Made by a program: the position numbers and the translations under genes. From Chondrosia reniformis (taxonomy: Eukaryota; Porifera; Demospongiae; Chondrillida; Chondrillidae), in assembly GCA_947172415.1 (NCBI GenBank), contig OX359190.1, positions 9,672,001 to 9,736,000 on the forward strand: a DNA stretch of 64,000 nt, read 5' to 3'. Below are positions 14,776 to 55,281 of the stretch, piece after piece. The notes under the pieces are model-generated. The model saw only the letters and a program-made list of their open reading frames with translations, was not told the origin of the DNA and searched no databases. How positions within the stretch are numbered: position 1 is the stretch's first letter; every line of letters begins with the position of its first letter.

Positions 14776-14880
14776 TAGTGTACCAAGTCCCTTGCAAGGA
14801 CTGCAAGAGGACCTATATATGTGAGACAAAGAGTACTCTCAAGGTCAGACTTGGGGAACACAAACATTGCAAATTTACCT
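14776..14880 (+). mobile_element. retroelement relic with GIY-YIG-like segment
   Basis: In the plus frame the translation contains VYQVPCKDCKRTYICET followed by STLKVRLGEHK and a stop. This is the pattern of the GIY-YIG endonuclease in Penelope-like and some other retroelements, where a Cys pair precedes YIGET and then R-L-x-x-R-L-x-E-H. The Gly of YIG is Cys here and only about 35 codons remain, so it is a dead fragment. The flanks show no further retroelement coding. Confidence 0.6.
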
Positions 14881-15690: not shown

Positions 15691-15911
15691 TGTGCAGGGT
15701 AATCCTGTGCAAATAAGTTACTTATTGTCCCTATAATATTTAATGAAGTTAGAAATAAGGAGGACAGTGCTTGCAACTTGACACAGTTACTATCACATCA
15801 TGATCCATGAGTACGGAAACGCATTAACAACGCATAGCCTCTCGCGTAATTGTGGGGGCTCGCCCAGGCTCGTGCCAAGTTTTGCGTCATTCTATATATA
15901 GTAATTCTTCA

Positions 15912-17510: not shown

Positions 17511-18329
17511 ATTAAAGGTTCAAGTGGATCTATTTCTCAATTGCCAATTTAATACAGTACTTATAGCTGTTGGAACCTCTGATCCTAACCCTATGCCCAA
17601 TGTATGATTAGTATAACACTCACACATGAACAATAATCATGCATGTTTATTAAAGCTTATTTTAAAGTAAAAAATGCATGTTTAATTTGCTGATTTGGTG
17701 GCACATGTTGTTCCTTTCTCTAATTGATGAAACTGATAGTCTTCAGGATGTCTTTGAGCATATACATGCATGCATGCAGCTATTACACATATGCATGCAT
17801 ACTGTGTATAATTTTAAAATGAATTTGTATGTTGTATTTATTTAATATATAAGCATATACATACCTCCAGTGAGATTGGACTGCAATCCAGCAATATAAG
17901 GTTTCAAGATCCGCATGCATGCATAATTTCGATATTGCTAGATGCACTGGTTAAGTGCACACAGACAAGTTTTAAGTTGGTCAAAGATATTCCACAGCAA
18001 TATATATATGGTGCGGCATGCTGGTTTGTTGTCAATTTTGATAGAGGTGCATTGACAGGGAGCATATATATCCTGCTTCCATGCAGGTGACATCTATTTT
18101 TTGGGCTTCACTCTCTGTGGCTGTGACTTTGAAGCCAACCTGCGAACTCTCAACCTTCAATTGCTGTAACTGCATCGCTGTGCGGAAATGGATGGTCACA
18201 TGTACGTAGGTGAACATGTAACATCGAAAATTAAGGTCGATCGAATCGTTCGATCACATGACCGAATTTTGACTGGCGTAGCGATTTTTAGCTTACTCAT
18301 GTACACATTTAGGTATTAATTCTTGTGAT
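17511..18329. other. spacer between CARD-like paralogues 1 and 2
   Basis: No gene seen. It contains GCATGCATGCA-type runs near 17765-17800 and a palindromic CGATCGAATCGTTCGATC-like stretch near 18238. The remainder is AT-rich. Confidence 0.4.
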
Positions 18330-18455
18330 CGGAGAGTATATTGCATGGTTTCCCTGTTTTCATGTCGCTACGCTAAGCATAATTCAGCCATTACTAAGAG
18401 TATAGATAGTCTATATATATAGCGATCTGCATATCGCCAAGATACTTAGAGATTA
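18330..18455 (+). pseudogene. decayed CARD-like coding sequence upstream of paralogue 2
   Basis: This segment aligns to codons 5-65 of paralogue 3 (shared blocks include TGTCGCTACGCTAAGC and TATAGCGA), but carries several indels and cannot be read as one frame. It joins without a gap to the intact frame starting at 18456, so paralogue 2 has lost most of the N-terminal CARD-like domain by decay rather than by a clean deletion. Confidence 0.8.
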
Positions 18456-19910: not shown

Positions 19911-20220
19911 CTGTACATATATCAATTTACATTTTAATTTACATTTTAATTTAATCACAATCTGCCCATGCCACTAACATCACAGTATATAGTATACATT
20001 TCTTTGAATTTTCACTTCATGAATGTTAACATGTTTCAATCATTTTTTGTTTAAGCCTGAAATTTACACACTATACATAGTGCAATATACCGGTATGATC
20101 CAGTAAATACATGTCTTTGAAGTAATAATTAATCAAATTAATTAACCTTAAATAAAATTAAGAAAGAGCCTTTTCCTGGGAATTCAACTATGTATATAGC
20201 ACTGTTAATAAACAGAACAA

Positions 20221-20837
20221 ACACTCTCCAATAGTATCCATGATTAATACCTTAATACTATAACAAATTTTATGCAATAAAAATACCAACTTTATATATT
20301 GTTAATTAAAAACTCTAATCTAATTGGTAGAGTCAAATTTAGTTGATTCTCTCAGTTGGTCATCAAGTTCACTTCCAAGTGTCCAGAGTTTCTCCAGTTC
20401 CATGCAGCTGTTGTCTCTTCTCCTCCAGTAGGCAGTGAACCACAATGTGTCCCATGTCAACCACCATCCAATCATCACTGTTCCAGCCATCCAAGATTAC
20501 CCGTTCCACTCCATCCATCTTCACTCCTTTGGACTAACAAGAATTAACACCATTAATAGAGTAATACCAAATCTATAGCAATTTGTAGAGTATGTATGTG
20601 TGCCCATAGAAGTGGGTGTATGTACTAGAAGAGGGTAGAAGTGGATGTTCCCACAGAAGTGGGTGTGCCCATAGAAGTGGGTGTGTGTATGTACTAGAAT
20701 TGGGAGTGTGTATTCTGCTCTCTGTGACCCACCTCTTTAGCAAGTCTACCAGTTACAGCCCTCAGATGTCTTGTTGATGTTCCAGTGCATGTCACAAGAT
20801 AGCGAGCATACTTAGCCCACTAGCCACACCCAAATCC
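20221..20837 (-). pseudogene. partial MALSU1 duplicate
   Basis: Matches the MALSU1 gene and its 3' flank at 23610-24155: 3' flank, exon 2 (about 20331-20547), the intron and the start of the domain-coding part of exon 1 (about 20740-20837). Because the intron is included, it was copied as DNA, not by retroposition. Exon 2 carries a 4-base insertion near 20402 that shifts the frame, and the intron has gained short internal repeats (GAAGTGGGTGTG type). It stops abruptly where a LINE fragment begins. Confidence 0.85.
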
Positions 20838-21086
20838 GTGATATTTGAATACCTGTGCTTGCATGCACAAAGGATTCAAACACCTTAGCTACAATATAGG
20901 AAAGATAGTTACTGGACGGAAATCTTGGATCTTTTTGGCTTCAGTTGTGTTAGGAACGGGAATTACCTTTGCCTTCTTCCACTCTGTAGGAAGAACAGAC
21001 TTCTTTAAACTTAAGCTAAACCTTAAGAGGTGACATAAACTTTCCCCAACATCATCCATAATTGATCTATGTATATATATATTCAT
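20838..21086 (-). mobile_element. non-LTR retrotransposon reverse-transcriptase fragment
   Basis: On the minus strand the translation gives SLKKSVLPTEWKKAKVIPV, then a spacer and DFRPVTIFPIL, the hallmark start of a LINE reverse transcriptase (x-x-P-x-x-WK-x-A-x-V-x-P-x-x-K ... RPI-S-L). After a frameshift and stop the expected continuation KVFESFVHAQVFKY follows. Only about 75 codons survive. It sits exactly at the breakpoint of the MALSU1 duplicate. Confidence 0.8.
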
Positions 21087-21247
21087 TTCAAATTCAGCTC
21101 GTTAATTAGCATACATTTGTATATATATATGGTGTGTAAATTTGAGGCTTAAATGAAACATGTTAACAAATCAAAGAAATGCACATGATGTTAGTGAATT
21201 ACCAGTAATGATTGTATGGTAACTATAAGTAAGACTAAAGATTACTG

Positions 21248-22891
21248 TCACTTCTTAGCATCATGAACTTCCTGTAAAAGTTTTGAATCATTTAGCATTT
21301 CTGCAATCTCCTGTGCAAACTCTAATCTCTTACATACAATCCAGTTGTCAAAAGCAGGCCTCATATGAGGCATTGCCTCCTTAAGATTTCCTTGCAGAAA
21401 GAACAGCATAAACCAAAGATGGTGATAGTGAGCAAAGGAGAAGTTGTTCTTCAAAAAGTGGCTCCCCTCATCAATCATTTGGTCATCAATTGACCTCATG
21501 GTATTTTCTCCTGAGCGAAGCAACCGTTGAACCTCTGGGTGATTTCTCGTCTCTTCCGGATCCAGTGTCTTAATTCTATCAATTCTATCTTTTGCTAGTC
21601 TTAGCTGTATGTCTGCCTTGCCAACTTTTATTGGCTCTGCATATGGTCTGAACCAATCGACATCTGACATTTTCTGCATCATCTCCTGATTTCTTTGATA
21701 GGGTGCAAGAATAGATTCTTCTGAATCTTCTAAACTCTCTTCGTTTTTACTTGTCAAAAAGAGGATCCAACCGTATGCCCAAACTGGAATGAAAGAGCCA
21801 ATGTCATCAATCATGTTTGACAACTGCATTGCATAGGAACCATGTTTACTTGCCATTTCCAGTTCTCCCATATGAGCATAGTGAGATGCCAGGCATCCAT
21901 GCAAACCACATTTAAGAATGATTTTATTCTCACAGTCAGGTGAATCCACCAACTTCAAGGCCTCATAGAGTAATAGTAAAGCTTTTTCACCGGCAGCTCT
22001 CACAGGAACGCCTGCATTCACAATAAGAATCCTCAAATCCAATGGTATTTCTCTGTTCTCCAGACATTCTTCAGCTAGTTTCATTGTAACTTCTGGCTCC
22101 ACTCGACACCAATCATAGACGATCTTATAAACTCTCCCACGTAGTTGCTTTAGTACACCAGACACCTTAATTCTAGAAGGAGTAATTGGTATACAAGTCA
22201 GATTGATAAACAGTCCATCTAGTTCCCCTAATTCAATAAAGACATTCCTCAATGTTGTAGGAATTTGATCATTTTTTGTGGTGTTCCTGGCACATTTGAA
22301 TTCGGAAAGGAATGCCAGGATCCACTCATGCAGTTGAAAATCCCTGCAGCTTATCTCCATACCATTTTCATCATTGGTGCAGCTCGATCTCAGATTGCTT
22401 TCTGAAGTGCAGGTCACATATGCATGTTCCCTTCTGCGCACTCCCGTGCATTGGGTCGAGTAACCATTTCCCCTCGAAGTAGCTTCAATTGGCCGACAAT
22501 TAGTAACGAAGCTATGAGCATTAATAGATGAGATTTCTTGCCACTCTCCATATCTATAGCTAGAACTGACCGGTTCCGAATCCATCGAATCGTCGGAAAG
22601 GATATCTCTGTTTTGAGCCTCTTTGATTTTTTGTAAAAGATCTGTTGCTTCAGCATTAACTGCAGCGAATTCCTCTAAAGCCGATAAAAAGTTGTTACAG
22701 TCATCCTCGGTTCCATTCTCTAACGTTTCGTAAATTTTTTCGGCTTTGTCTCCCGGAGACAGGTCGCTATATCTGTCAACTAGTAGTAGTCCTATTTCTT
22801 TTAGTGATGGCTCAATTAGGCTTAGCGTAGCGACAAGAAACGCTAAAATATTATACTTCAGGTAAACCAATACTCTCCGAATGACAACCAT
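21248..22891 (-). CDS. CARD-like / TPR-like protein, paralogue 3 (intronless)
   Basis: A 547-residue intronless protein on the minus strand, the complete member of the family. The N-terminus (about 5-93) has the CARD-like pattern: hydrophobic helices to EPSLKEIGLL, then YSDLSPGDKAEKIYETLENG, DDCNNFLSALEEF and ATDLLQKI. A polar linker (about 95-165) leads to a helical, TPR-like region (about 170-540) with DLRILIVNAG, a helix pair near HGCLASHYAHMGELEMASKH and the signature YHHLWFMLFFLQGNLKEAMP. No transmembrane segment, signal peptide or catalytic motif is seen. The upstream region (22892-23000) has a TGACGT element and a GGCTCGCCC motif like those before paralogue 1. It points toward paralogue 2, so the two close copies form an inverted pair around the MALSU1 duplicate and LINE fragment. 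Role in signalling is inferred only from the domains. Confidence 0.78.
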   Translation of the reverse strand: MVVIRRVLVYLKYNILAFLVATLSLIEPSLKEIGLLLVDRYSDLSPGDKAEKIYETLENGTEDDCNNFLSALEEFAAVNAEATDLLQKIKEAQNRDILSDDSMDSEPVSSSYRYGEWQEISSINAHSFVTNCRPIEATSRGNGYSTQCTGVRRREHAYVTCTSESNLRSSCTNDENGMEISCRDFQLHEWILAFLSEFKCARNTTKNDQIPTTLRNVFIELGELDGLFINLTCIPITPSRIKVSGVLKQLRGRVYKIVYDWCRVEPEVTMKLAEECLENREIPLDLRILIVNAGVPVRAAGEKALLLLYEALKLVDSPDCENKIILKCGLHGCLASHYAHMGELEMASKHGSYAMQLSNMIDDIGSFIPVWAYGWILFLTSKNEESLEDSEESILAPYQRNQEMMQKMSDVDWFRPYAEPIKVGKADIQLRLAKDRIDRIKTLDPEETRNHPEVQRLLRSGENTMRSIDDQMIDEGSHFLKNNFSFAHYHHLWFMLFFLQGNLKEAMPHMRPAFDNWIVCKRLEFAQEIAEMLNDSKLLQEVHDAKK

Positions 22892-25785: not shown

Positions 25786-26773
25786 TCATTTCTTTTTGTC
25801 TTTATTGATAAAGAGATTTATAAATATAAATGTGGTGGACAGTAGCAGAAAGAAGACGTAGATTCCAGCAGCACCAAAGGCAGCGCTACAGAAAGGAAAA
25901 AAATCTCTCACATCACACATGGCACAATTGAATGCTCAAGTGTAATTAAATGTACTAGAGATGGTAAACATGTAGACTATTTAGTCAAACCAGCTACCTC
26001 TTGCAGACAGTACTAGAGGAGGTTCTACTAATGTCCTTCATGGGGGGACTGGGGGTACATTAACCAATAACTTGCATCACTTGGAGATTTCTGATCCTTT
26101 GTCGTAAAAAAATGACCAATTTTACTAAAACGTTTACTAATAAAGTTCATGACTCCTGTATCTTCATCCAAAGCTCTCTTCAGGTTTAGTTCCCCTATAG
26201 GCTCTTTACAGAATAGGCATAGCATGTAGGAAAATGGTATCTTAGATTTTTCACAAGAATGAGAGATTATTCCTTAAATATTCAGGTCTTCAGGTGTCTC
26301 TGTACTTACCTGGCAGATGTCTGGTAGGCAGCTGTTATGTCTGCACTAGTATGGTTCTTCTTTAGTTCCAAATGACCATTTTTGGAGGTTTCAAACAATC
26401 CGGCCGTGTAAGTGTCTTCAAAGAGAGCCACTGATTCCACCTCAAAAAATACTCCCATAAGTGCCTGATGTATCAAACACAACAATGAAGACACTATGGT
26501 CAGAATGCTGTCATTTTTTGAAATTCCACGTAAAATTTGTTAATCAATGTCTATAAACTCACTACTAGTTCAATAAAATTAATACAATGTGTACAATTAT
26601 TAAAGTACCCCATTCACTCTTTAACCAACCAATACGAATATTGTACTCACCAACATTATTATTCCCCAAAGACTAAGTATGAAACAGCATACGGATCCTT
26701 GTATACCACAAATACAGAAGAGAAATTTGACTAAATAGTCTACCGGCTTACTAACGGTTTTCTCTGTCGCCAT
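25786..26773 (-). CDS. RNASEK: ribonuclease kappa-like small membrane protein
   Basis: Three exons, 26773-26651, 26464-26310 and 25885-25786, join in phase to 125 residues. Two hydrophobic segments are visible: about 20-45 (CCFILSLWGIIML continuing to ALMGVFF) and about 93-117 (GAAGIYVFFLLLSTTFIF). The central part, VESVALFEDTY and ITAAYQTSASAAFGAAG, matches the RNASEK family, a V-ATPase-associated membrane protein of the endolysosomal system once described as an RNase. The start MATEK is chosen because it lies in the family's position and in an AAGATGGCGAC context. A hammerhead-type repeat fragment lies in intron 2. It shares a 66-bp head-to-head promoter with BBOF1. Confidence 0.93.
26150..26248 (+). 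repeat. family A interspersed repeat, tail fragment (copy a)
   Basis: Matches the tail of the hammerhead-bearing repeat (see 54310-54536): CCAAAGCTCTCTTCAGGTTT through GCATGTAGGAAAATGG. The part where the ribozyme core would lie (about 26028-26150) is too degraded to recognise. Located in RNASEK intron 2. Confidence 0.8.
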
Positions 26774-30864: not shown

Positions 30865-33800
30865 ATGCTATTTTCCGCTTTCTTTATCATTTCAGCTGTT
30901 CTGTGGCAAACTAATGCATTCGAAGAGCAACGTAAGAATTATTAACCACCTAGCGCGTCACGACCAAACCTCTTAGTGTGTCGTTCTTTTTCATATGATA
31001 ATTAGTAATACCTAGAACAGTATTATTCATTAATTGCGTACAATGATCATGTTGTAAGCAAGTTACACGTTTCATTAACATTCAATTATTGTGTTTGCAA
31101 ATAGTAGATGGTTAATTTTCCGTATTTTTATGCATTTGTGCATCATGAAATTGCAATGCAAACCTTTAACAACCAGCAAATATCAACAGTGTATGTGACT
31201 AAAGCTGCACTATATTCTCTTAGATTATTCCAAAACGGAATTTTGTCCCGTCCTCAATTTGATCTCCAGAGGGCGTGTTGTACCATATGTATATGACTAT
31301 GGCTTTCAACCCCAGAGGGAGGGGGCGGTGTCTCGGTACAAGTGTGGTGAGCCATATGAACTGGAAGGGAATGAGTTTAGGACATGCATGACAGGACCAC
31401 ATGGACTGTTTTGGAACGGAAGCAAACCTCGATGTGTCCGTAAGCTGACTTGTGTTGGTACAGTACTGTAACTGTTGGCCAACTTTATTTAATAACTACC
31501 ATCAGTTTTTGGAATTCCACCTTACTTTCCTTCTGAAGAAAAAAGTTTTGGAAATTTTTAATCTTTCTTGCAGCCAAACGATGTCCATCTCTTGCTGATA
31601 CGATCGAACATGGACAAGCAATTGAGGGCACGCGTCTTCCTGGTTCACAGACCATCATCACCTGTGACCCAGGTCAGCTTGAAGTTGGATGATCTCAAAC
31701 TATACCATTTGGATTGTTTTGGTTATTTGTAATCTTAGGGTTCTTTCTGGAAGGGAGTGTTATCCTGAGGTGTCTCAACAATCACACATATCACAAACCT
31801 ATCCCTAGTTGCAGTAAGTCTTCAAAATTGGTTCAGAAACAAATCAATTACTTAATATATTATTTATGTCCATGTTGTAGATTGTTTAGATATACTTTGT
31901 TAGCTAAGTAAATTGTCACATATTTTTATAGTTGCTGCTTGTCCTCTAACGCCACCCCTTGACAATGGCCGCTATAATCAGACATATGCAGGTCTAAACA
32001 GATCAGTAGAGATCCTATGTGATCGTTGCTTCAATTACACCAGAGGACCTCTGTTAAGATGTCTGCCTAATGGCTCCTTTGAACAGCCATATCCAAGATG
32101 TGAAGGTAATTGGTATACAATTGCTGACTGTAATATATACCTCTTGGATGCAATGAATTTCTTATATGTCTCCTACTGAAGATGATTGGCCTTCCACAGG
32201 TTATATATATATGTTTGGAGTTCTTTATAATGTTAGGGCAATTTTAAAAATTATTATACCAAACCAGTTGCCATGGAGCTTTTAATTATAAATACAGGAT
32301 TGATGACCAAAACAGTAGTGTTACCTACTATGCTGGATCTAGCAGAATGTTTGACAAAATTAATTCAGAAGATTGCATGGTTATCTTTAATTATAGTCTC
32401 TCCTTCTCCAGTGAAATCACATACATTTGCCCTTGTTCCTTCTGTTAGGAATGAACTGTCCCACGCCAATATTCCGAGCAGCAATGTTAGCTATTGTGGT
32501 GGAGTATATGTGTGATTCTATAGCCAAATTTGACTGTCCATCTGGACTTGTATTAAATGGTCCTGCAAATGTGACTTGTAATGAAAATGGTGAATGGTCT
32601 GATGTAATACCACAATGTGTTGCAAGTTCCCCTTCATCAATTATTGACACAACAGGTAAATGCATCCATCTATCCATTTATCCATCCATCTATCCATTTA
32701 TCTATCCATCTATCCATCCATTTATCTATCCATCTATCCATTTATCTATCCATCTATCCATCCATTTATCTATCCATCCATCCATTTTTCTATCCATCCA
32801 TCCATTTATCTATCATCTATCCACCCATTTATCTATCCACCTTCCTACTTGATTGCACAAACTCTGTATTTTGCCAATTCTAGGTCTCCCTCAAATTGAT
32901 GGGTGTATGCTACCGCCTTCTTTGGACAATGGAAACTACATGATGAAAATCCCTGGGCCGTTCAGAATGAATGACTTTAATGTGATGGTAAGTATTATAG
33001 CGCAGTATACTCAAGTGTGTCTACACATAAAAACTCAAAACTGGGGCTAAGAAACTTGTATGGACGTATGTTCACCCTATTTAAGATTAATTATATGATA
33101 TGGGTTTCTTCTATCTATTAAAATTATCTTTGAAAGGGATCATTTTTGATCTCTCAAGCATCTAAAGATGCAGTCTTTTGGTTGAAACTTCTTGCCAGAT
33201 GTTTTAACCAAAACCTGCATCTTGAAGATTGAAAGTTGAACCCTCTCAAAGATATGGACTACATACTCCATGACAATATCTCTGATGTTGCTATCAGGGA
33301 ACAGATGCAGAAAAGAGCTACACCTTGTATACCCTACTTGGTCCAGTAGCAACGGGCAAGGAGCGGGTGGTTCCAGAAGGTACTGTGGTCCTCTACAAGT
33401 GTGATAGAGGCTACACGTTGGAGGATGGAGATGAACGTCACATTTGTTTGTTAAATAAATGGATGGGAGTAGTACCCAAATGTCAACGTAAGTAAACAAG
33501 ACTTGTCAACGTAAGTAAACAAGACTTGTGAACATCTGATGTTATTTATTGCTCTCAAAACATTGGTAGACATCATCCATCTCCTTGATAGCTGCAGGTG
33601 TTTATATGTTTAGGTGTTTATATGTTTAGGTGTTTATATGTTTAGGTGTTTATATGTTTAGGTGTTTATATGAAAAATCTAATACACCATTTCCTACATG
33701 CTATGCCTACTCTTTAAAAAAGCATATAGGGAACTAAACCTGGAGAGAGCTTTGGATGAAGATATATACAGGTCCTGTTTTCTTCTTCTATACTGGGCCA

Positions 33801-35448
33801 GACAGCTGTTTCTGGGAATTCCATCCACAACCCCTCGAATCTTTGTCTTTTCTTGATCTTGATCTTTTCTGAATCCTTGGCTATACACTGTTCATAAGGT
33901 GTATGGTACATTTTCTAGCTATCATTTGCCCAATGCCTGAAGAGGATCCACTAGGCAATGGATATTACGAAATATTACGATCAGAGTTTCGTCCAGGGAC
34001 TATTGCAACCTTCAGGTGCTACGCTGGTTACTTCACTGAGAGCTCCCATCAGATAAGATGTGGTTTTAATGGCACCTGGATGGGTGGTCCCCATCCTTAT
34101 TGCGAAAGTGAGCTTTCCTGAACTCATTGCAACCTGCACCACCAACCTTACAAGTTACTTTGTTTTATTTGAATTATACATCACTTTAATCTCTATATAT
34201 CTGTCTACCAGTCTCTAGATGTACGTAGATTTAAATCCAGACTCACACTATCTCTCTTCATTTATAATGTGTATACAACACATCGGAAGAGAGCAATCAA
34301 GAGCAATCAATGAAATTTCATAGTTTTATTTCTTAATTATTCAAAGTTTTGATTCTTTTGTCATAGTGCTAGTCAGAATTATGCTGCATGAGCAATTAAT
34401 ACACCATTTTTCGACATGCTACATCTAATTAGTAAAGGCCTATAAACCTAGTGAGAATTTTGGATGAGGATACAAGAGTTTTCTTCTTCTCCTCCTCTTC
34501 TCCACTTGGCTACATGTACCACATACAAGTGTCCTCTGTTCATATCACCTCAGGAGTGTTATGTGGCTATCCACCAGTTTATGATGATGTCGATGTGGAA
34601 GGAAGTGAGTTCTTTCCAGGAGGTGATGTTTTCATATCTTGTGCTGAGGAAGATGGATTTAGTTTTAATGAATCCGTAACCTGTCTTGAGAATGGACAAT
34701 GGGATATGGACCCGTTTACTTGCGACCCAAGAAGTAAGACTGTGATGGGACAGAAGTCGTGCTTTATTATTGTTTATTTATTTTTCTGGGTGGTGAGGTA
34801 AACAAGTTACTTAACTGCTGCTATGTTATTGGATATTTCATTGCTATTTCAGGTTTTGTTGAGGCCTGTCCACGTAGACCAACTTGTAAGACTGTTGACT
34901 TTGGTAAGGCTACAGGAGACATTTCTGTTCTGACTTTTTTTAAGTTTAGCAATTGAAGATCGGCAAATATTCTGTTAGACTCTATGCAAATATGATCCCT
35001 CATTTATCAAGTCTCAAAGTGTTTACTGTGTTAGGATCCTCGGTAGCATTATAGATCCAGCTAGCATGTTAGATATCTCCAGTGCATGGCACATTTTTAT
35101 TTATATTTCTTATGTACAGCTGTTGTTGGTACATTGAGGAGTGTGGGTTCTAACAGAATGACTGTCTCCATCAGGGATGTACTCCTTCAGGAACACCCAA
35201 TCGAAACCGGACTGACAATTATTCGTCACTTTAATCTTCCCACAGAAATGAAATGTTGCAATCGTCTTCTTGTAGGACAGCAGTATTTGTTTACCGGTAG
35301 CTCTTTTACAATTGGACGTAACTCCATGCTTTTTAGTATGGGATGTTCAGATATATATGACGTGACTCTGAGGAATGGACAATATTTTTATAAAGTCAGC
35401 AGTTCAAATGTGCAGAAATTTCAACCTTTTTGCCCCAATCGTTTTTGA
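30865..35448 (+). CDS. secreted seven-sushi (CCP) protein with C-terminal netrin-like module
   Basis: Twelve exons join in phase: 30865-30931, 31224-31439, 31574-31672, 31739-31813, 31932-32105, 32449-32655, 32884-32987, 33298-33487, 33919-34107, 34554-34733, 34853-34903 and 35120-35448, about 626 residues. Exon 1 is a signal peptide ([18 protein letters not shown]). Exons 2, 3+4, 5, 6, 7+8, 9 and 10 each code one sushi/complement-control module, with four Cys and the Trp before the last Cys in most (for example [12 protein letters not shown]). Almost all introns are phase 1, as usual for shuffled modules. Exons 11-12 code a C-terminal domain with CPRRPTC, a basic strand region, [15 protein letters not shown] and a final Cys, which resembles an NTR/netrin-like fold as in complement C3-C5 and TIMPs. 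No membrane anchor is seen. Likely an extracellular recognition or complement-regulator-like protein; ligand unknown. Confidence 0.87.
32661..32843. repeat. ATCC/ATCT microsatellite in CCP gene intron
   Basis: Imperfect run of CATCCATCTATC-type units in intron 6 of the sushi gene. Open frames across it (Ile-His-Pro-Ser repeats) are artefacts. Confidence 0.93.
33133..33210 (-). repeat. inverted-repeat element, family B fragment
   Basis: Alignable on the minus strand to the right half of the element at 7785-7894 (AGCATCTAAAGATGCAGT block followed by a GTTGAAAC-like stretch). Located in intron 7 of the sushi gene. Confidence 0.5.
33481..33528 (+). repeat. 23-bp tandem duplication of a splice donor
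   Basis: The last codons of exon 8 of the sushi gene plus its donor, TGTCAACGTAAGTAAACAAG with the next three bases, occur twice in a row. Use of the second GTAAGT would add 23 nt and shift the frame. Confidence 0.85.
33593..33671. repeat. 16-bp minisatellite, 5 copies
   Basis: Five head-to-tail copies of GGTGTTTATATGTTTA in intron 8 of the sushi gene. Confidence 0.93.
33677..33893 (-). repeat. family A interspersed repeat, copy b
   Basis: Near full-length copy in reverse orientation (tail at 33677, head at 33893) in intron 8 of the sushi gene. GAAA, helix III and the GUC cleavage site of the hammerhead core are kept, but the CTGATGA box is mutated beyond recognition. Confidence 0.88.
34395..34505 (-). 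repeat. family A interspersed repeat, truncated copy c
   Basis: Tail half only, in reverse orientation, in intron 9 of the sushi gene. The ribozyme half is missing. Confidence 0.75.
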
Positions 35449-35856: not shown

Positions 35857-37287
35857 GTAAGTCTACTGCGTCCTTCTAATTACGTGTGTTCTCTAGTTAG
35901 CATCTATTGTATTCGTTTATTAGTAGTAACTAATTACGTACTTAGCAACCCGTTTTGATTATGATTCCATTACTGTTTTCTTCCAGACAGCAAGTTGGGG
36001 GAATTTTAAATATGTAGATCTTAAAAGTATTGCTTTGTATATATGATTGTCACCGAGAAGTCGATAACTTAATTCGACAGGTTTATTTCATACCAGTTAG
36101 TATATACTGTCGTGTTGGTACTTGCTCTTCGGCTTTGTTGTGACGACTAGCTGATAAAGCTTTTGATAGCTTTTGTTTAAAAGTGCTCCAGGATGTGGAC
36201 CAATCTAATGGACTTTAGGTTGATGCGTCGCTCTGTGGCCTACCTTCTTTTAAGAACTTGTCTGATTATCTGTCCTTTGTTACGTACAAGCAAGCCCTAG
36301 TTTGTCGAATCTATAGCTGCAATTCGAATTACATTTATCTGTTCATGCTACAGCAGGGTGAAATTTATCGAAATACACTAGGTACGATTTTTAGAGAATT
36401 CAAAGGAAAACATAGATGGAATCACATCTGGTTTCTTTATTATCTACATTGACAGTGTATAGACTTGTATTGATTCCCAGATAATGAGTTAATGTATTGA
36501 ATGATGAGTACTTATTGAGATGCATCATGCTTGTGTATCTGCTTAGAGCTCATAATCTCATTTTCTGCGCATTTATTTGCGGCCCATTTGGAATCACCTG
36601 TGACTTGCGGATGTTTCTCCACTTGCGGTTGAAGCTTAGAGCACTCATGGTCGTCCAAGTGTTAAAACTTGAAAGCAGTCACCTCACGATCATTGTTTCA
36701 TAACTACTGTAGCATTCAGATAGCTTGTTAAACTATATAGTACTACATTGTAGACATATGCGGTAATGCAAGTCAAAAGTATGAAGAATTCTATTAAATG
36801 AAGTATTTAATGGATGCAGGCCCTGGGATAGTATTAATAGATGGGTGGATATGTGGATGGATGAGTGGATGGGTAGATGATACACTGGCTAGTTGAACGG
36901 GTGGGAAATGAATAAGATATGTACTTGTATAAATATGTACACACTAGATTAGAGTGGGAGAGAATTGATAAACATTGGTCCTCATATAAAATTGTGGACA
37001 CCTCACATTTCAGGTGGTATATGTCTTGCGATAACTACCAAAGAAACTAAATAGAGAGCATGCAATAATCTTCTTGTGAGTTTTGGCCGAGTTGTAATAT
37101 CTACTTCTTGTGTCTTTTGTAAGACTTCAAATTTAAAGCCTCAGTTGGTGTCATGTGCATTAACATATAGGGTATGGGTTCAAATTATCCTTAAAATTTG
37201 CCTGTCACTGTGACCTACTGCATGGAAGCCAGATTAAATTGAAATTAGTGCATATCCAACCACTATTAATTAATATAAACAACTGGT

Positions 37288-37500
37288 GTCAAGGACTCAC
37301 AAAGATCAAGAAGAAGACAAAGATTCCCAGGGTCATTGGTGAAGGGTGGAATTCCCAGCAACAGTTGTCTGGCCCAGTGGAGAAGAGAAATTGAAGGAGA
37401 AAATTCTTGTATCCTCATCCAAAGCTCTCACTAGGTTTAGTTCCCTATAGGCCTTTACTCTAAAGATGTAGCATGTAAGAAAATGGTGTGTTGATTTTTC
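37288..37500 (+). repeat. family A interspersed repeat, copy d
   Basis: Full-length-type copy in forward orientation. Hammerhead core positions are partly mutated: the CTGATGA box reads TTGGTGA and GAAA reads GCAA, while helix I (GGGTCA / TGGCCC) and GTC are kept. Confidence 0.88.
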
Positions 37501-39540
37501 ATGTATTTAGATAAGAAGTATTTATTTTTAAGATGTTTACCACTTGGCAGTGATGTAATTCAGTGATCCTAGTTATAGTCAGGACTGATTGCTAGACTTT
37601 TAGAAATATGAATGATTTCAGATATGATTCAGCACAAGATTAGTATATTTGCCACAGATGGCCATCCTGATTGGCTGAGCTGTGACAGGTGCAATTCAGT
37701 TGAGTCCTAATAACTTATTTAAGGATGATAAAGGAGGAATGGAAGGGCTAAATTGTCTGAAGATATATCTTAAAAAGTCTACTGTAATCTGTTGTTGTCT
37801 GCAAGTCTATTAGAACTTAACTCTGAATCTCCTGCTATATAGAGGTTGCCTAGGTGACCTTGCCCATATATCCAATGACATCAGAATATCAATATGAACT
37901 CATATTATCACACAATTTGTTGTATACTTGAAGTTTTTGTTCAATTTGAAATTGATAGGTATTACAGTGAATGCAGTTTAGAATACACAATAGAATTAAG
38001 TCTTGTCGTAGTGCATTTGAAAAGTTTAATGTTTAGATCCAATTTCAAATTGTCAGTGTACACAACACAGAATTATGTGTATTAATATAGAAGTTATAAT
38101 AAAATAAAATGTTTATGCTGTCATATTTGTTTTGATGAAGGTTTGTTCCTCATTTCAAAGTATTTTATTTCAAATATGAGTGATATCTTCAAGAAGCTTA
38201 ATGTTAAGTTTGATAACAAGGTAACGCCATTTTTGTGAAGTATCTTTGTAAATTTGATCAAACCTGCATTCATTTATAGTGTGAAATTGGTTTCCTCTGA
38301 TTCCACCATCATGTGTTAATTGTTAATTAGAGTATGTCTCTAATCATATAGGGTTTTCCTCTTGGGATTGGAAGATTATGAAACTGTCTTAATAGTCAAT
38401 GGCTATTTTATATACACTGCCAATTCAGCCTATAAAATCCGTCTTTACGAGTGTTATATATCTTGGTACATGAACCGATATCAGCTTTGCGCCCTACAAG
38501 TGGTGGTATGAATCCTCATTTGAGGAGCATTTTAGTAAAATGTTAAATCAAAGTAGCCATTTTTGAGGTGGTTGCATTTCCTAGGCATCATCCAGACATT
38601 GTTCTGTTGAAAGTGCTGAGTTAGAAACACTGACTCATGAGGGGATGGACCAAACTAACTTTGACAATATTTGGAAATAACCTTTTTACAACTGCCCCAA
38701 ATCAAGCAAAATGTATTTGTGTGTGTATATATACAGTTATTAATAGTGTTATTTTAGTCCAGAGGGTGTGTATGTATATATACAGTTATTATACAGTTAT
38801 TAATAGTATTATTGCAGTGTGTGTGTATTTAGTTAACTAGGTTGTATGTACATATGTATACAGAATGTGCACACTAAATAGTTAAGTAGCCATTGGCTAA
38901 CAGACTGCCCAGTTAAAATAATGCTTATTGAATTGAATTGAATATATGGTAAAGCAATTTCTCAAAAATTACCCTCAGATATGTAAATCACTTTGATGAT
39001 GTAATAATCTGTTGATTGAAAGTAGTTTTGTGGTTAAGTTAGTGTGCACCACACATGGCAATAGGAAGCAGTACTTGTCTATATGTGTGTATACATACAT
39101 ATATACTAGTAGCTGACATTAAAATATCTGCATATATTGTGTTTTTAGTCTATCCTCCTTATGTATAATGACCATAATTTTCTGGAAAATGGTGTTTTAG
39201 ATTGTACATTTATGTACGTACGCATGTAGTTACCAGCTGCAAACTTGATTTGAATATTGTGAATTTTTGTGTATTATTTACTTCATCTTTAATGTATACA
39301 TACCGTTCTCTTTATTATTACACTAAAATAAATCTAGCTTTTAAAGTTTAGTGACTAAGTGACTAAATGCGCACCCTTTAAGGTAATATTTAAGGACAAG
39401 TGATTCAGTGGACGTTTGGCTTCATCATTGCTTCTACTGTTTGTATTCATCCTACCTCTCAGTAATCTCAAAAAAGGGTTGCCACATTTTAGCTTGTTCA
39501 TTCTTGAGGAAATCGAATGAAGTGTTTCAGTAGACAGTAT

Positions 39541-44201: not shown

Positions 44202-44345
44202 AAGGATTCAAAGAAAGACTTCCAGGCTGATGAAGGGTGCTATTCCCAGGAACAGCTGTCTGGCCCAGTGGAGTAGAATAACAAAGAGAAGACTTGTATC
44301 TAAAGTTCTCTCTATGTCTAATTTCCTAGTTATTAACCTTATAGT
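44202..44345 (+). repeat. family A interspersed repeat, copy f
   Basis: Forward copy with intact CTGATGA (44227-44233) and GTC, but GAAA changed to GGAA and helix I shortened. Confidence 0.85.
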
Positions 44346-44851: not shown

Positions 44852-47800
44852 ATGTCAGCTGAAGGCAACGATGTAGTCCACTCCGGGTTTCTCTTGTTGA
44901 AAGTAAAAGGGAAAATTCATTCAGTGAGGCTTCTTGCAACCTTTACATTCTAATGACTTCATTCTCTTACTAGTGTCATACAAAGTGCAGCAGCCTAATC
45001 TATGAAAAGTGTCATTTGATTAAAATGGCGGCAGTATAGGACAACACAGTTATAGAAAATGAAATAAAAATGACATGTTCATAGATCTAGGAAACATGTA
45101 TAAATGCATGATTTCATTTCATCTATATTTTTCATGTTATTGGATATCAGGTCAGCTTTCAAATTGTGTATGTGTAACTAAAGCTTTACAGGCTATTATC
45201 TTAAATTTGTGATACATGGAGGAGAAGAATAGACTTTTGTATCCTCATCCAAACCTCTCATTCGATTTACTCCCTATAGGCCTTTTACTGTAGAATGGAT
45301 GTAGTGTATAGGAAATGGTGTCTTAGAATACTCATACGTACGTATGTCTACAGATAATTGCAGTTCAGGAGGTCTTAAGTGTGGTTAATCTTTCTTCCCT
45401 CTTCAGTCCTACCATCAAGGCATCTGTGCCTTACACAGAGAAACACTGGATGGAACAAAGAGGTTGGAAATCAAGGAGCTGAACAGTGGAAAAGTTACAA
45501 CTATTCCAATTAATGACCTCCTTGAGGTCCGAGAGTCAACTTCCAAGAAAGAAAAATCTAGCAACTTTCCATTTGAGGTATAATTGTTGCTGGATTTGAT
45601 GTGACATTCAATCTCTGTACCTGCAGTGTACATATATGTATAATAAGCCTGTTTATGGATTAAAATTGAATTAAACGTATGACCACTTCAGTTTCACTGC
45701 TGGTGAAAGACGTTGAAAGGTTTTAATTTCAAAGGGGTACCAATATATGGGAGTTTCAACAGAATCATAAATAAACACTAAGACCTGTATGCATATAATA
45801 TTGAAAAGGGCATATCAATGAAAAAAATGAATTTTACAGATATCTGAATTTATAAATATATTGTTATCAACATGATGTATTATTGTTGCTAGGTAATCTG
45901 TGCCAAAGGAAAGCATACATTAGCAGCTGAAACAAAAGAAGAACGACAAAATTGGATTGCTCTGATTAACAAAATATTTTCCGGTGAACCTGAACCAGGA
46001 ATTACTTGTGAGTGTTCCAATACTTCAGATTTTCTTGATATTTCCGGTGCTTCTTCACCAAATCTGGCTAGCTGTTTAAAATTTCATTATATTAATGTAA
46101 TGCACTTTGCACTTTAATAATAAGAATGAGAGTAATCTAATTGAGTCTGCACATCGAAGTGAATGAGGTCCATCTGATTCATTTAATTATTTATTTATTT
46201 ATTTATTTCTGCAGATAAATACTCTGTCACAATGCAAGCTAACGAGAGTAGCAAGAAGTTTGGGATGAGTGGAAACTATGTTCTTCAAATTTCAGAAATC
46301 AACATGTCGCTCTATTCGGCTACTGGGCTCATACCGACGCCATTTAATTTGGATTTGTGTGACATCCGGCGGTTGCAGCAATGTTCTCTGATGGGGAAGC
46401 AAGGCGGGAGGGAGGATATCATTGTGATATACACCATGCCGTAAGTGAATATCTTCTCCCCTCACTGCATGATTGTTCAGGTCTGGTTTCATGCAGTAAT
46501 ACGTACATATGTAGTGTGAATAAATTGATTACAACCAAAATGAACAATTATTTCATAAGGATGGCAATAAAACATAGTTTATTATTGGTGAAATTTGTAT
46601 TATGATTGATTTAGTAGTTTGTAATTATTCATTGTCAGTTAATTAACATTTTAATCCTAGAGGGAAATAGCAGTTAACCAGTTACCTCTTAGAAGCTCTC
46701 TAAAGCCTTTGAAAATTAATGTGGTTCCTTCTCTCCATCCTTACAGGCACAGTGGAGTTGGTGAAGGGACTTATGTGCTTAAGTCACCAAATTCTAGTGA
46801 AATCTCCCAGATCATTGATCGAAGGATAAAGATTCTACTTCAGAGAGATGGTAGCTCAGATGAAGTGTCTATTGTCAGTCGTGAGAGCACACCTCCTCCT
46901 CTCCCATCCTGTAAGTAATACTTCCTGTAACTGCTCCTTCCTGTAAGTAATTCTTCCTGTAACTGCTCCTTCCTGTAAGAAATCCTTCCTGTAACTGCTC
47001 CTTCCTGTAACTTCTCCTTCCTATAACTGCTCCTTCCTGTAACTGCTCCTTCCTGTAACTTCTCCTTCCTGTAACTGCTCCTTCCTGTAAGTACTGTACT
47101 TTTCCTGTGAGTATCTTTTCCTGTAAGTGTCCTAAACTGTCACTTTTCTGTGAGTGCCCCTCCCTCTCATGTCCTGTAAGTGCCCCTCCCCTCTCATGTC
47201 CTGTAAGTGCCCCTCCTCTCTCATGTCCTGTGAGTGCCCCTCCCCTCTCATGTCCTGTAAGTGCCCCTCCCTCTCATGTCCTGTGAGTGCCCCTCCCCTC
47301 TCATGTCCTGTGAGTGCCCCTCCCTCTCATGTCCTGTAAGTGCCCCTCCCCTCTCATGTCCTGTAAGTGCCCCTCCTCTCTCATGTCCTGTGAGTGCCCC
47401 TCCCCTCTCATGTCCTGCAAGTGCCCCTCCCTCTCATGTCCTGTAAGTGCCCCTCCCCTCTCATATCCTGTAAGTTTCATTCAGTCTTTACTGAGGCAAT
47501 GTGTAATTTATAACAAAATTAATTTTTCTTTCAGCCTCAGGATCTAAGAAGAGGGGAAAGAGGCAGCATAGTATGGAGAACAATGTCATGAAGTATCACG
47601 AGCGTCCTAGCATTAAGCTAAAGAATGGAATACAAGATCGCAGCAGAAGCTTCACCTCCACGAGATCTGGCAGCATAAACTCTGAAATTGTGAAAGCTCT
47701 TTCCCCTCAAGAAAAAGCACCAAAGAAAACTCTAGCCAACATTGGGCACTCCTATTCTGAAGACAGTCCAATGTCACCTAGATCTAAGACATTTACTAGT

Positions 47801-51046: not shown

Positions 51047-54000
51047 TTAATCATCTTTCTTCTCAGGGAAGGCCACTCCTAGTTCCTTCTTACTGAGGTA
51101 CTCCTTGTACTGGTGGTCAGTGCCAAAGAGCTTGTCCCACCAGACAAAGGTGCTCGAGTAGTTACCATTAAAGTTCATGTGATGGAAATCATGCCATCTT
51201 GCACCTGAAGAAGACAGTGATCAGATGACAGACGGGTAGAAATCAGTAAGATATATGGAGAGGCATGCAGGATAATGATTTAGCAATGGGAGTGAGTGGT
51301 GAAGCAATAGTGAGTGATGAAGCAATAGTGAAGCAATAGTGAAGCAATAGTATGAGTGATGAAGCAATAGTAAGACACATTACTAGTGACTGACAATCTG
51401 CATATCTCACTTACCTGCATATCCAGGGATGAGGTGTAGAAGGTTGAAGGGGAAGTCATAACCGCTGTGGACATCAATGGTCTCCAACAACCTGAAGAAC
51501 ATCCAAGCCCAGAGGAAGAAGACGTGGTTGGCAAAGAAGAGGATTCCAAAGAAGAAGCCACCTCCTAATACTGTAGGAAAGATAGCCTCATTAAAAACTT
51601 CCAATCTAAAGAACAACATGGCTGAAGAATAGGGGAGTTTAGGATCAAGAGCTAATTAAAAACCATCACCATTTGACTCTGGATTTGGATCATTATAAGT
51701 AAGAAACAGATGTCTATACATCTCAACCATCATTTTGAGTGGCTAAGGGAAGACTCTGGTTCCCATCAAATATATTTTGGTTCCACCCAATTAGCTCAGG
51801 AGACATGAGTGGGTGGGGTAATTCCAGAGTCACATGACGATAACATGGCAGAGATTTAATATATGGTGAATGTAAAGCATCTATATCTTTTATTAGAAAT
51901 CCTAGAGGACTGCGATGTGTCTGTTCCTATGGTTACGTACTGTTCCTATGGTTACGTACTTAGGGTCTCCAGTGGGTGGGCGTATTCTGCTACAAGTCCA
52001 AAAGGCACTTGAAAGTGGTGATGCACTTTGTGTATGTACTTGTAGACTCTTCTGTGGTGAAGAAGACGATGGAAGAAGTAGTGCCATGTGTCTTCAATCA
52101 CAGCACAGCAGAAGCACCTTCCCAGCACAGAGTACCTAGGGGAGGGGCAAGGAGGAGGTTGCATCATCACTCTACCATGACCTTAAGAAATGTACATGTA
52201 GTAAAGTAGGATCTTCAAGTCTCATGAATACACCATTTTACTTACTTACTACATCTACTTAAAAATAAAGGCCTATATATAGGGAACTAAACCTAGTGAG
52301 AACTTTGGATGAAGATACAAGAGTTTTCTCCTTCTATATACTTCTCTTCTTCTCAACTGGGCCAGACAGCTGAGCCTGTTTCTGGGAACTCCATCCTTCA
52401 TCAGTGACCCTGGGAATCTTTTTGTCTTCTTCTTGATCTTTTGTGAGTCCTTGGCTTAAACTTTAGAAACTCATAAAGTGAAATAAGACTAATATGATTG
52501 ATTTCTCTTCTCCTGACCGCTCTAGAGGCACCTGACATGATATAGCACTAAATATAGTAAGTATTGAGAGTAACATTCCTACCATCTTGGCAACCTCTCC
52601 CAGTCATAGGGAATGTCCATAAGGATAGTGAAGTAGTAAGTCCCTGCAATTAGTGGTATCTGGAAATGATTAGAAGAAATACATTGATATTAGACGTAGT
52701 GACAGTATTCACTACTCTAGATCTAGTATTACTGCCACTCTCCTTTTAATATTATATATATAGGATCTATCTATGCTAGTTTAATACATGCCATACATAT
52801 ACACCTATAGTAATAGCCATTCCTATACTTCCTCCTTATTATACTTCCTCCTGATGCTCACCTGATGTGTCAGGTCATACGTTCATATATTATATCCCAT
52901 TTCATCAAACCTCACTTATACAAGAATACCAACAATGACATTTCCTAATTTGGCATGTGTATTCATCAGCCCACACCAGTGAGAACGCATGATTCTCACC
53001 TGATCACATCAGCTGACCTACCTCTTGCCAGTTTGAATAATAATAACAATACTGGCTAGATAATGATATTCATAGATGATCAGTGTGACCTTTCCAAGTC
53101 TTAAGTGTCCCTTTTACATGTTCTAACACCACATTATTTAAACTTTATCATTTAGTATTTCTTTCTTGTGTGAACATTATCCTTCTCCTTATGGGTAATC
53201 TATTGCTACACACTACATCCATTCTACAGTAATGGAACTAAACCTAGTGAGAGCTTTGGGTGAGGATACAGGAGTCTTTTCTTTAATATTCTTCTCCACC
53301 GGGTCATGGCTGTTTCTGGGAATACCATCCTTCATCAGTGACCCGGAAGTCTTTCTGGAAAAGTTCCTTCGATCTTCACATCTCAAATACGTATATGTAA
53401 CTGCATTTCCCACAATCCACCCTCTCTCATTAACCCCTCCTCCCACCCCCTCCGTTATCCACTTTTCTTTATTTCTCGACAGTAACTCATATCTCTCCCA
53501 CCTCCCTCAGTCTCCCACCTACCTCAGTCTCCCACCTCCCTCAGTCTCCCACCTCCCTCAGTCTCCCACCTCCCTCAGTCTCCCACCTCCCTCAGTCTCC
53601 CACCTCCCTCAATCTCCCACCTTTATAAACTCACTTGTATAAATACATGATTAAAAATTAGTCTTTTCATGCACATCCACTGCTTTTCAAAGGTCTCCCT
53701 TTGGCCCTATATACAGATTAACAGAATTACAGCACATTGCTAAACAGATTTAGTAACAAAACCATATGAATAGATCTTTTGAAATGATCATCTTTTAACT
53801 TTTAGAGCATCCAGTGACCCTACAGGTCGAACCTCTGACAGTCAAGAAGTGTCTTTAGACGCTCTAAAGTCGAAAGATGATCCTTTCAAAAGATAAGTTC
53901 AATGCAGTTAGGAGAAATCCTTAATCTATTACACACGAATAGACTATGCTAAATCAGTGTGATATACTATGCAGTATATAATGATATGGAAACTCCACTA

Positions 54001-55281
54001 GCCTAAAAATATCACTGGACGATGTCGAAGTCAAACGCTTCGGCCCAATCCTGGGCCCTCATCAGTGAAAGATTATTTTTTTAGGCTAGGGGAGTTTCCA
54101 TATCATTATATGATGCAGCAACCTAGCCACACAGAAACTTTCCATACTATGCAGTTATTGATGATTCTTGAGCTTCTAATAGCAGCTTACAAAGTACTTG
54201 GGAATAAACATGAAAATAGTATACACAATATGTATACTATTTATTTAATTGAGTGCCAACAACATAGTTTTACAGTGATAAACAGTTTGAATGAAATGTC
54301 TTCTTTGGGATAAGGATTCACAGAAGATCAAGATAAAGAAAAAGACAAAGACTCCCAGGATCACTAATGAAGGGTGGTATACCCAGAAACAGCTGTCTGA
54401 CCCAGTGGAGAAGAAGATAAAAGAAGGAAGAAAAGACTCCTGTATCTTCATCCAAAGCTCTCTTCAGGTTTAGTTCCCTATAGGCTCTTTTACAGAATAG
54501 GCACAGCATGTAGGAAAATGGTGTATTAGATTTTTATGGTCCTCCTCCACCCCAAAGAGCTCTCTCTCAGTTGAAGCACTTTTAGACATAGCATCTTCGC
54601 ATGCTAGAATTAGTATAGTTTTTAAGTGTTAAAGGTAAAAGGAGGTGAACAAGTAAATATTTCTGAACTACCTACAGTACTACTTTAGTTGTACGGCTTC
54701 CTTGTAACAACTAGGGTGCCATTTTTCTTATAAACCATAATATCCCTATCTTGCTACTCACTTGAATTTTATAACTTCTTGCAAGATACAGAAACTGAGA
54801 TAAGAATCCCGGAAGACATAGTCCAAAATATACAATCTATTTGTTAGAGAAGGAAAGGCAACATGTGAAGCGAATTGCACGTGGGGCAATTCTGATATCA
54901 TGGAATGATTTTAAGCAATGATTAAGAATGAAGAAATAATACTTTCTCAAATCCTTCAGATGCTATTCTTCATTTGACAAACAATTTCTTAAATTTCAGA
55001 CATAAAGAGTTTCGACCAGCACTCTTTGAAATAGTATTAGAATGTGCAATTATTTATTTATTATTTACCACATAGAGATATATAATAGTCGAAGGTGTTA
55101 GTATTTAGTAATATCGGCTCGCCTCATGAAGAAGTATAGAGCCGTAAGTTGCTATGGCGAACTTGGAGTAGTTATCGGTCATGTAGCGCCAGCCCAACTC
55201 AAAGTACGGCAGAGTAGGATTATCCGGAACGAACTGGTCATAAGCGCTCGTTAGCACATTTAAAGTAGAGTTGATGTCCAT
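51047..55281 (-). CDS. MSMO1: methylsterol monooxygenase 1, copy A
   Basis: Seven exons (55281-55123, 54836-54762, 53706-53635, 52659-52583, 52135-51960, 51570-51415, 51204-51047) join in phase to 290 residues, the usual length. It belongs to the sterol desaturase/fatty acid hydroxylase superfamily and oxidises the C4 methyl groups of sterol precursors at the ER. The three iron-binding histidine boxes are present: HRLLHH (about 150), HKVHH (about 163) and HDFHH (about 243). Hydrophobic segments lie near 45-70, 103-115 and 180-205. The exon 1 donor is GCGAGC (55122 downward), a GC-AG intron, while copy B has GTTAGA there. Exon lengths are the same in both copies. Introns hold three family A and two family B repeats and a CCTCAGTCTCCCAC array. 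Confidence 0.93.
51775..51840 (-). repeat. dispersed repeat D
   Basis: The reverse complement (ACTCTGGAATTACCCCACCC and onward) aligns with 10797-10845. It lies in intron 5 of MSMO1 copy A. Family unknown. Confidence 0.55.
51920..51959 (-). repeat. duplicated donor segment in MSMO1 copy A
   Basis: TGTTCCTATGGTTACGTAC occurs twice in a row directly after exon 5, so two GTACGT donors lie about 19 bp apart on the minus strand. Confidence 0.85.
52225..52462 (-). repeat. family A interspersed repeat, copy h
   Basis: Full-length-type copy in reverse orientation in intron 4 of MSMO1 copy A. It contains the most complete hammerhead core (see 52359-52410). Confidence 0.92.
52359..52410 (-). ncRNA. 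type I hammerhead ribozyme motif
   Basis: Read on the minus strand: helix I strand GGGTCA (52410-52405), CTGATGA (52404-52398), helix II segment (52397-52383), GAAA (52382-52379), helix III ACAG/CTGT, cleavage triplet GTC (52367-52365) and helix I strand TGGCCC (52364-52359). GGGUCA pairs fully with UGGCCC (with one G-U), and helix III pairs four bases. All invariant core bases are present. Helix II is weak in this copy but perfect in the sister at 54371-54385. Self-cleavage is predicted, not shown. Confidence 0.65.
53200..53365 (-). repeat. family A interspersed repeat, copy i
   Basis: Reverse copy in intron 3 of MSMO1 copy A. CTGATGA, helix II and GAAA are intact; the cleavage triplet and helix III are altered by a small deletion. 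Confidence 0.88.
53490..53622. repeat. 17-bp CTCAGTCTCCCACCTCC minisatellite
   Basis: About eight copies immediately downstream (on the gene strand) of the exon 3 donor of MSMO1 copy A. Confidence 0.92.
53777..53930. repeat. inverted-repeat element, family B copy
   Basis: Arms 53777-53794 and 53875-53892 pair at 17 of 18 positions. The interior (GACCCTACAGGTCGAAC and CTCTAAAGTCGAAAGATGAT) and the right flank (AATCCTTA) align with the copy at 7785. Intron 2 of MSMO1 copy A. Confidence 0.75.
53982..54105. repeat. inverted-repeat element with hammerhead-like core
   Basis: Near-perfect 28-bp inverted arms (53982-54009 and 54078-54105). On the minus strand the loop carries CTGATGA, a GGGCCC/GGGCC hairpin and GAAGCG, an order like a hammerhead core; GAAA is replaced by GAAG, so activity is doubtful. 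Intron 2 of MSMO1 copy A. Confidence 0.75.
54310..54536 (+). repeat. family A interspersed repeat, copy j (reference copy)
   Basis: About 227 bp from AAGGATTCACAGAAGATC to TGTATTAGATTTTT. Hammerhead positions: CTAATGA at 54364-54370 (one change from CTGATGA), a perfect helix II at 54372-54384 (GGGT / ACCC), GAAA at 54386-54389, GTC at 54395-54397 and TGACCC after it. No open frame or tRNA-like promoter is seen. Intron 2 of MSMO1 copy A. Confidence 0.92.

Follow-up and report, generated by a model that had tools for sequence, protein, structure and literature searches.

The question raised by this locus is what kind of element scattered a short, hammerhead-bearing repeat through the genome of the sponge Chondrosia reniformis, and whether the ribozyme in it is genuine. 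The locus is a 64,000-nt stretch of contig OX359190.1 (assembly GCA_947172415.1, positions 9,672,001 to 9,736,000), here called the window. A preliminary description of its sequence had counted about nine copies of a ~230-bp repeat in both orientations, and had proposed a separate, non-autonomous, retrozyme-like class with no coding capacity and no long repeats. A nucleotide profile built from 11 genomic copies (threshold 0.01; weakest E-value 7.8e-20) recovered all nine copies at the places described, in both orientations, dispersed and single rather than tandem (Table 1). The separate class is not supported: the same sequence forms the pseudo-long terminal repeat (pseudo-LTR) and 3′ end of a coding Penelope-like element (PLE), and the window repeats are 3′ ends or pseudo-LTR pieces of this 3,501-bp autonomous retrotransposon, which has near-identical copies in the same genome. 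The short copies are non-autonomous only as solo pseudo-LTRs, because they are either 5′-truncated pieces or, as we argue below, possible copies of ~241-nt RNAs begun at the pseudo-LTR start. Probably, then, the repeats are fragments of one permuted, Naiad-type PLE family whose pseudo-LTR holds a type I hammerhead.

The probable parent element of the window repeats

With an 80-mer taken directly 5′ of full-length copies, 40 matches in the genome were scored, all at 100%; among them were four same-strand pairs ~3.5 kb apart and one pair 2.1 kb apart. Two of the ~3.5-kb pairs were read, and both are direct repeats flanking an intact open reading frame (ORF) of 973 aa. Units are joined head to tail as partial tandems, with one seamless junction in which TTTTTCAT is followed directly by GTGTTTAC; a single base differs in element C2. 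In unit coordinates the TATA box lies at 3227, the transcription start at 3258 and the predicted cut at 3346, so that the pseudo-LTR comprises a TATA box, a CCAAGG start, the hammerhead-like motif (predicted cut 88 nt in) and the common end TTTTTCAT. Upstream, some copies continue into sequence that resembles a promoter, in which TATATAAGG precedes CCAAGG by 31 bp. Flank-anchored patterns retrieved 684+700 and 1228+1209 copies from the genome, against 0+0 in each reversed control. The looser pattern CTGATGA-N6-30-GAAA occurred at 4185+4456 places, against 1090+920 in its reversed control, and several families contribute to it.

The ORF carries a GIY-YIG domain (PF01541) at aa 102-135, which scored 24.2 bits on an N-terminal piece (cut-off 22.6) and 22.0 bits, under that cut-off, on the whole protein, where it was the sole Pfam domain. 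A match to the reverse transcriptase (RT) domain (PF00078) at about aa 594-808 was limited to C-terminal pieces, with none on the whole protein, and stayed below its cut-off (best E-value 6e-6; 26.5 bits against 29.6); the RT motifs FDFSTLYTAIP, GIPMGTD and YIDDL were recognised by eye. Between the two domains, at aa 395-397, is a CEC motif. Both the combination of RT and GIY-YIG in one ORF and the pseudo-LTRs, which arise from partial tandems with variable 5′ truncation, mark the element as Penelope-like. The order GIY-YIG, CEC, RT, with an N-terminal endonuclease and a CxC motif ahead of the RT, is what we take to define Naiad-type PLEs, and the predicted domain order and CEC motif fit that type. 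Naiad-type PLEs have an insertion bias for short tandem repeats; the flanks of C1, C7c, C11a, C11b and C13 are ACTAGTACATACA-like arrays, which may or may not reflect such a bias. At least ten full-length ORFs among the 50 protein matches listed are 99-100% identical, nine of them without stops, and the family has therefore probably been mobile recently. Among bacterial and archaeal genome contigs, 18 stretches fit the pattern sought for relatives of the ORF and none was confirmed; a PDB sequence search with the ORF gave nothing useful. Within the window, positions 14763-14864 show a weak protein match to the GIY-YIG part of the ORF (34 aa, 38%, E-value 0.006).

Copies of the repeat share their 3′ end and have lost variable amounts of 5′ sequence, the pattern expected of target-primed reverse transcription. 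Direct repeats resembling target duplications were also seen, such as CATGTTTACTCACA flanking L009/L080 on either side.

The hammerhead-like motif and its sister family

The core of a type I hammerhead consists of CUGANGA, GAA, the pair A15.1-U16.1 and H17. This core is complete in both common forms (old and young) of the repeat family found in the window, family A, and in a sister family, D. It is surrounded by three stems and opens at stem I, the type I arrangement, and both family A forms have a 2-bp stem III with a tetraloop. The core is retained in 53 of 65 sampled family A heads (those matching the family at ≥32 of 46 places) and in the 3′ copy of all ten near-intact elements read, and old and young forms differ in stem I and loop III with no difference in the core. 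The expectation of the preliminary description that a consensus of genomic copies would keep CTGATGA, GAAA and GTC was thus borne out by the common family forms.

Family D matches family A in its core and almost entirely in loop II; its stems differ, and read GTGCTA/TAGCAC, GGAG/CTCC and AA/TT. An exact core pattern located 32+37 family D copies in the genome and 0+0 in the control. Similarity between its two subfamilies is limited to the ribozyme and its surroundings, about 65 to 90 bp in all, beyond which the flanks differ. No ORF like that of L122 was found near family D at E ≤ 1 in L125-L136, searched 1.5 kb to each side; some of these copies lie as inverted pairs (L125/L126).

To compare the stems we collected 49 distinct motif rows and, leaving out eight with indels or a damaged stem, counted pairing in 41 ungapped rows (31 of family A and 10 of family D). 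Paired cells made up 86.4%, compared with 10.6-52.2% when the partners were slid, and changes on both sides of a pair occurred in 50 cells, compared with 1-5. Pairing was 87.4% in stem I, 79.3% in stem II and 97.6% in stem III, and compensated pairs were found at four of the six positions of stem I (one by two rows only) and one of the two of stem III. Three of five covariation measures beat all 500 shuffles. Of 65 family A copies, 55 have CCCA and 57 have AGTGG flanking the motif; among 14 family D copies the counts are 11 and 6, and ATTGG and AATGG also occur there. CCCA and AGTGG could form a bulged outer stem which, with the kept loop II, would resemble the loop-loop contact of natural hammerheads. 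Because the stems that differ between families A and D are compensated, a type I hammerhead, as first described, is the best reading of the conserved head, and the motif most likely represents a true lineage of that ribozyme.

Several observations weigh against this reading. The base of stem II, where type I hammerheads have a G-C pair (10.1-11.1), is A.A in 31 of 31 distinct family A rows, while all ten family D rows have G-C or G-U there; the young subfamily has an additional A.C in stem I. Family D was picked from the CTGATGA-N6-30-GAAA list because its loop II resembled that of family A, and its search pattern fixed the core and most of stem II, so independent support comes from stems I and III. 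Two of the five covariation measures did not exceed the shuffles (6 pairs changed on both sides, the shuffle mean being 5.9; 14 further pair types, compared with 16.0), in our opinion because what varies is in essence a single contrast, that of family A with family D. A hammerhead descriptor demanding three stem II pairs had 0 matches on each window strand. The covariance search proposed for the window came back empty: Rfam RF00163 had no match there even at E ≤ 10, an outcome named in the preliminary description as refuting a hammerhead, and the Rfam type I model had none in the family A loci scanned. RF00163 does score other repeats of the same genome. It also missed the better-paired family D loci scanned, and we therefore take the miss as a limit of the model and not as a refutation; all other Rfam matches in the window and loci scans fell below family cut-offs, save the hammerheads of a family C. 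Folding energies of the family A forms, the window copy and the family D forms were unremarkable against shuffles (z from +1.33 to -0.55), whereas the family C motif is clearly stable (z -2.79). The young family A form does not have a hammerhead as its best fold; in the old form and in one family D form, the best fold pairs part of the core instead of forming stem III. Random elements match this loose descriptor at a rate of 89 in 400,000, which makes family A unconvincing taken by itself. Given this chance rate and the empty result of the descriptor in the window, the case for a hammerhead rests on the comparison with family D.

Two other readings of the motif draw on these same weaknesses. 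One is that the hammerhead resemblance is due to chance or to another constraint. At the loose-descriptor rate, a single accidental match would be no great rarity in a genome that contains many repeat families, and neither Rfam nor folding energy singles the motif out. A sister family with the same core, nearly the same loop II, similar flanks and different but complementary stems speaks against it; stems I and III of family D were not selected for. We regard this reading as very improbable. The other is that the motif is a fossil: the ancestral hammerhead was active, cleavage by the present element has ceased and is no longer required, and the sequence is still recognisable only because the copies are young. 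The A.A and A.C mismatches, the non-hammerhead best fold of the young form and the lack of an Rfam match all suit a fossil, as does the observation that ribozyme mutants of a canonical PLE left insertion in vitro unchanged (PMC11167929, in excerpt). The intact core in all ten 3′ copies, the confinement of old/young differences to positions outside it, and a duplication in C2 that begins exactly at the cut point (below) count on the other side. We consider a fossil a serious possibility, though somewhat short of an even one.

Six of the nine window copies have a motif-bearing head; the remaining three are 5′-truncated. A covariance model made from the 41 rows matched all six heads (E-values 7.6e-18 to 6.3e-7), and mainly serves to locate them because three were among the model's own rows. 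CTGATGA, GAAA and GTC occur together in one head only, at 52359-52410(-), where by eye stem III is lengthened to ACAG/CTGT around a 6-nt loop and stem II is reduced to two G-C pairs. The other five have differing lesions, in agreement with the preliminary description.

Table 1. Repeat copies and hammerhead-like motifs in the window (positions in the 64,000-nt stretch)
Feature	Position	Strand	Basis	Remarks
Copy, 5′-truncated	26150..26253	+	profile	no motif
Copy with CCAAGG start	33669..33888	-	profile
Motif of this copy	33795-33833	-		CTGATGA gone
Copy, 5′-truncated	34393..34512	-		first bases TAGCCAAGTGG at or within 2 nt of predicted cleavage point
Copy, near full length	37282..37504	+	profile	older subfamily
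Motif of this copy	37330-37375	+		core altered: TTGGTGA, GCAA
Copy without 3′ end	44210..44327	+	profile
Motif of this copy	44221-44266	+		GGAA replaces GAAA; 5′ strand of stem I absent
Copy, 5′-truncated	45219..45335	+	profile	no motif
Copy, near full length	52227..52459	-	profile	CCAAGG start
Motif of this copy	52359-52410	-		all core nucleotides intact
Copy, 5′-truncated	53203..53354	-	profile
Motif of this copy	53301-53344	-		stem I six Watson-Crick pairs; cleavage triplet (GTC) gone
Copy (pseudo-LTR/3′ end), nearly full length	54299..54535	+	profile	starts near CCAAGG start site
Motif of this copy	54358-54403	+		CTAATGA replaces CTGATGA

A second candidate hammerhead at 53979-54106 was dismissed by eye: these positions form a fold-back element whose inverted arms are near-perfect, and the CTGATGA is part of its palindrome. 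A similar element may lie at about 53780-53890. Other hammerheads are present in the genome. Canonical type I hammerheads, which score up to 43.1 bits with Rfam, are found at L019-L022, L025-L027 and L029-L050 in repeats that resemble retrozymes; several of these are in tandem ~354 bp apart, and the genome has 65 scored matches. A third repeated core, at L016-L018 and other CTGATGA-N6-30-GAAA places, reads CTGATGAAGACC-loop-GGTCGAAACATT and resembles the minimal PLE hammerheads that have no stem III. Elsewhere in the window, 15852-22891 contains three long ORFs (484-552 aa) in both orientations that look related by eye and are apparently a local gene family.

Templates and 5′ ends of the copies

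Eight of the ten near-intact elements read have an upstream partial unit, which in seven includes promoter and hammerhead. These seven start at unit positions 2122, 2288, 2356, 2374, 2546, 2849 and 2998, all before 3258; the eighth starts at 3464, and two elements have none. At three further loci read, all 5′-truncated within the ORF, an upstream partial unit was absent. Because transcription starts at 3258, a transcript begun at the upstream pseudo-LTR start cannot template the seven longer forms, and partial units that reach past the start suggest circular or read-through templates. We also compared the variants of both copies in each element relative to the L122 unit. Variants common to both copies and not seen in the other elements compared were present in C2 (two), C5 (one) and C7c (one), and would fit two passes over one template, which a circle and read-through of tandem units would provide alike. 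Telling against this are discordant differences between the two copies, five in C7c and one each in C2 and C11a. C1, C7a and C7b had neither shared-only nor discordant variants.

A circular template could arise as follows. RNA from the upstream pseudo-LTR would carry two hammerheads, and predicted cuts at GTC^T in both would free a unit-length RNA that could be ligated into a circle. Target-primed reverse transcription would start at TTTTTCAT, often stopping early and leaving short copies such as those in the window, and sometimes running more than once round the template, which would rebuild the pseudo-LTR. Short RNAs begun in a downstream or solo pseudo-LTR would give ~241-bp copies resembling short interspersed nuclear elements (SINEs). 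That a working hammerhead in each pseudo-LTR of a permuted PLE yields unit-length circular RNA, and that multi-round reverse transcription restores the pseudo-LTR, is a tentative proposal that we think rather unlikely as it stands. Upstream partial units may instead derive from read-through or tandem-array transcripts, and here we come close to an even judgement. A multi-copy mRNA from a repetitive PLE locus has been proposed (PMC11167929, in excerpt), and partial tandems are described for other PLEs (PMC3846280, in excerpt); however, no two full ORFs one unit apart were present among the 50 protein matches listed, and the seven long upstream parts exceed what a transcript from the pseudo-LTR start could template.

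Cleavage before reverse transcription would leave a trace in the 5′ ends, and the expectation, fixed before sampling, was that truncated copies should start at the T after GTC. The ends of 53 out of 116 copies were placed at 7-166 by a strict alignment, which cuts some old copies too short; four of these 53, representing three insertions (L087, L167, and L094 with L097), start exactly at 88, where ~0.3 would be expected per position. L162 and the window copy 34393-34512(-) start near 88; the latter prompted the idea and stands outside the four. Against cleavage, three copies start at 93, and the flanking bases of L087 and L167 match the element, so that the true junction may be 1-3 nt further. 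Taken together, 5′ ends at the cut site are a weak sign of cleavage. A cleaner sign, though a single event, is a 32-nt duplication present in both copies of C2: it starts at 88, exactly the first base past the predicted cut, without microhomology.

The 5′ ends were also read in 100 copies picked regardless of where they begin, namely all 100 places listed for the pattern with 1228+1209 matches, every one of them on contig C1. In 30 the end is within -3 to +6 of CCAAGG and in 37 it is at 7-166; another 16 continue upstream past the promoter as far as sequence was fetched, and 17 fall between, mostly read as chance extension of the alignment. The 30 include L107-L110, which are one amplified insertion present four times inside a larger local repeat (C1:3633703-3638284), eight copies for which the reference itself begins there, and L098 and L164, in which the repeat can be seen to go on beyond it. 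So many ends at the start site suggest that ~241-nt RNAs, begun in the pseudo-LTR and ending at TTTTTCAT, are themselves copied, which would account for the short non-autonomous repeat of the preliminary description. The repeats could instead be a retrozyme or SINE family in its own right, non-autonomous, hammerhead-bearing and mobilised in trans, which the PLE merely captured; 30 of 100 copies with one start site are what a ~241-nt RNA copied end to end would give. Against such a family stand the 16 of 100 copies that continue upstream through the promoter and the presence of the repeat, with seamless junctions, in both direct copies of complete elements; retrozymes are moreover tandem (PMC7229834, in excerpt), whereas the window copies are single. 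This origin is already disfavoured, and we hold it improbable.

Relation to known elements

The Chondrosia element, as a permuted PLE, shares with Naiad and Chlamys elements the N-terminal GIY-YIG, the CxC motif, the C-terminal RT and the pseudo-LTRs. Those elements reportedly insert in short tandem repeats, and some Chondrosia copies may do so too. Craig and colleagues are said to have described, in a 2021 abstract, Naiad and Chlamys elements as being without canonical hammerhead motifs; the Chondrosia element, unlike them, has a hammerhead-like motif. In the open-licence literature we found no paper on a hammerhead in a Naiad-type PLE. A hammerhead lineage in a PLE with a permuted protein therefore seems to be new, as do SINE-like products of a pseudo-LTR and the argument from pseudo-LTR length.

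Canonical PLEs (Penelope/Poseidon, and PAc of Anolis), in the excerpts of PMC11167929, likewise have pseudo-LTRs from partial tandems, GIY-YIG and RT in one ORF, and a hammerhead near the junction of pseudo-LTR and ORF. The Chondrosia element differs from them in its N-terminal nuclease and in the place of its hammerhead, which is ~280 nt upstream of the ORF and does not, as in canonical PLEs, overlap the start codon. A start of reverse transcription inside the RNA has been shown for PAc and may apply to the Chondrosia element. In the same excerpts, the PAc hammerhead cut only with its protein present and was dispensable for insertion in vitro. Metazoan non-LTR retrozymes likewise have a type I hammerhead with a 2-bp stem III and tetraloop, short repeats and many copies (PMC7229834, in excerpt), and are described as tandem, non-coding and with no apparent promoters in the excerpts of PMC7761336. 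Tandem non-coding repeats of 150-450 bp, the mark of metazoan retrozymes, are not what the window holds: its copies are dispersed, and they derive from the terminus of an element that has a coding sequence and a TATA box. A circular template has been proposed for retrozymes, with PLEs named as likely helpers (PMC7229834 and PMC7761336, in excerpt).

As these results show, a plain terminal repeat judged by its short copies alone can be mistaken for a hitherto unseen SINE or retrozyme family. If a hammerhead is indeed present in permuted PLEs, it may have a longer history and a wider distribution among PLEs than has been thought. Element copies that are near-identical and bear the ORF, ribozyme families with compensated stems, and pseudo-LTRs reaching past the transcription start are all found in one 117-Mb genome, and the role of the ribozyme in PLEs would, if this reading is true, become testable. 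A circular RNA, if true, would explain why ribozymes and partial tandems co-occur in PLEs, and would link autonomous PLEs and retrozymes by one RNA cycle.

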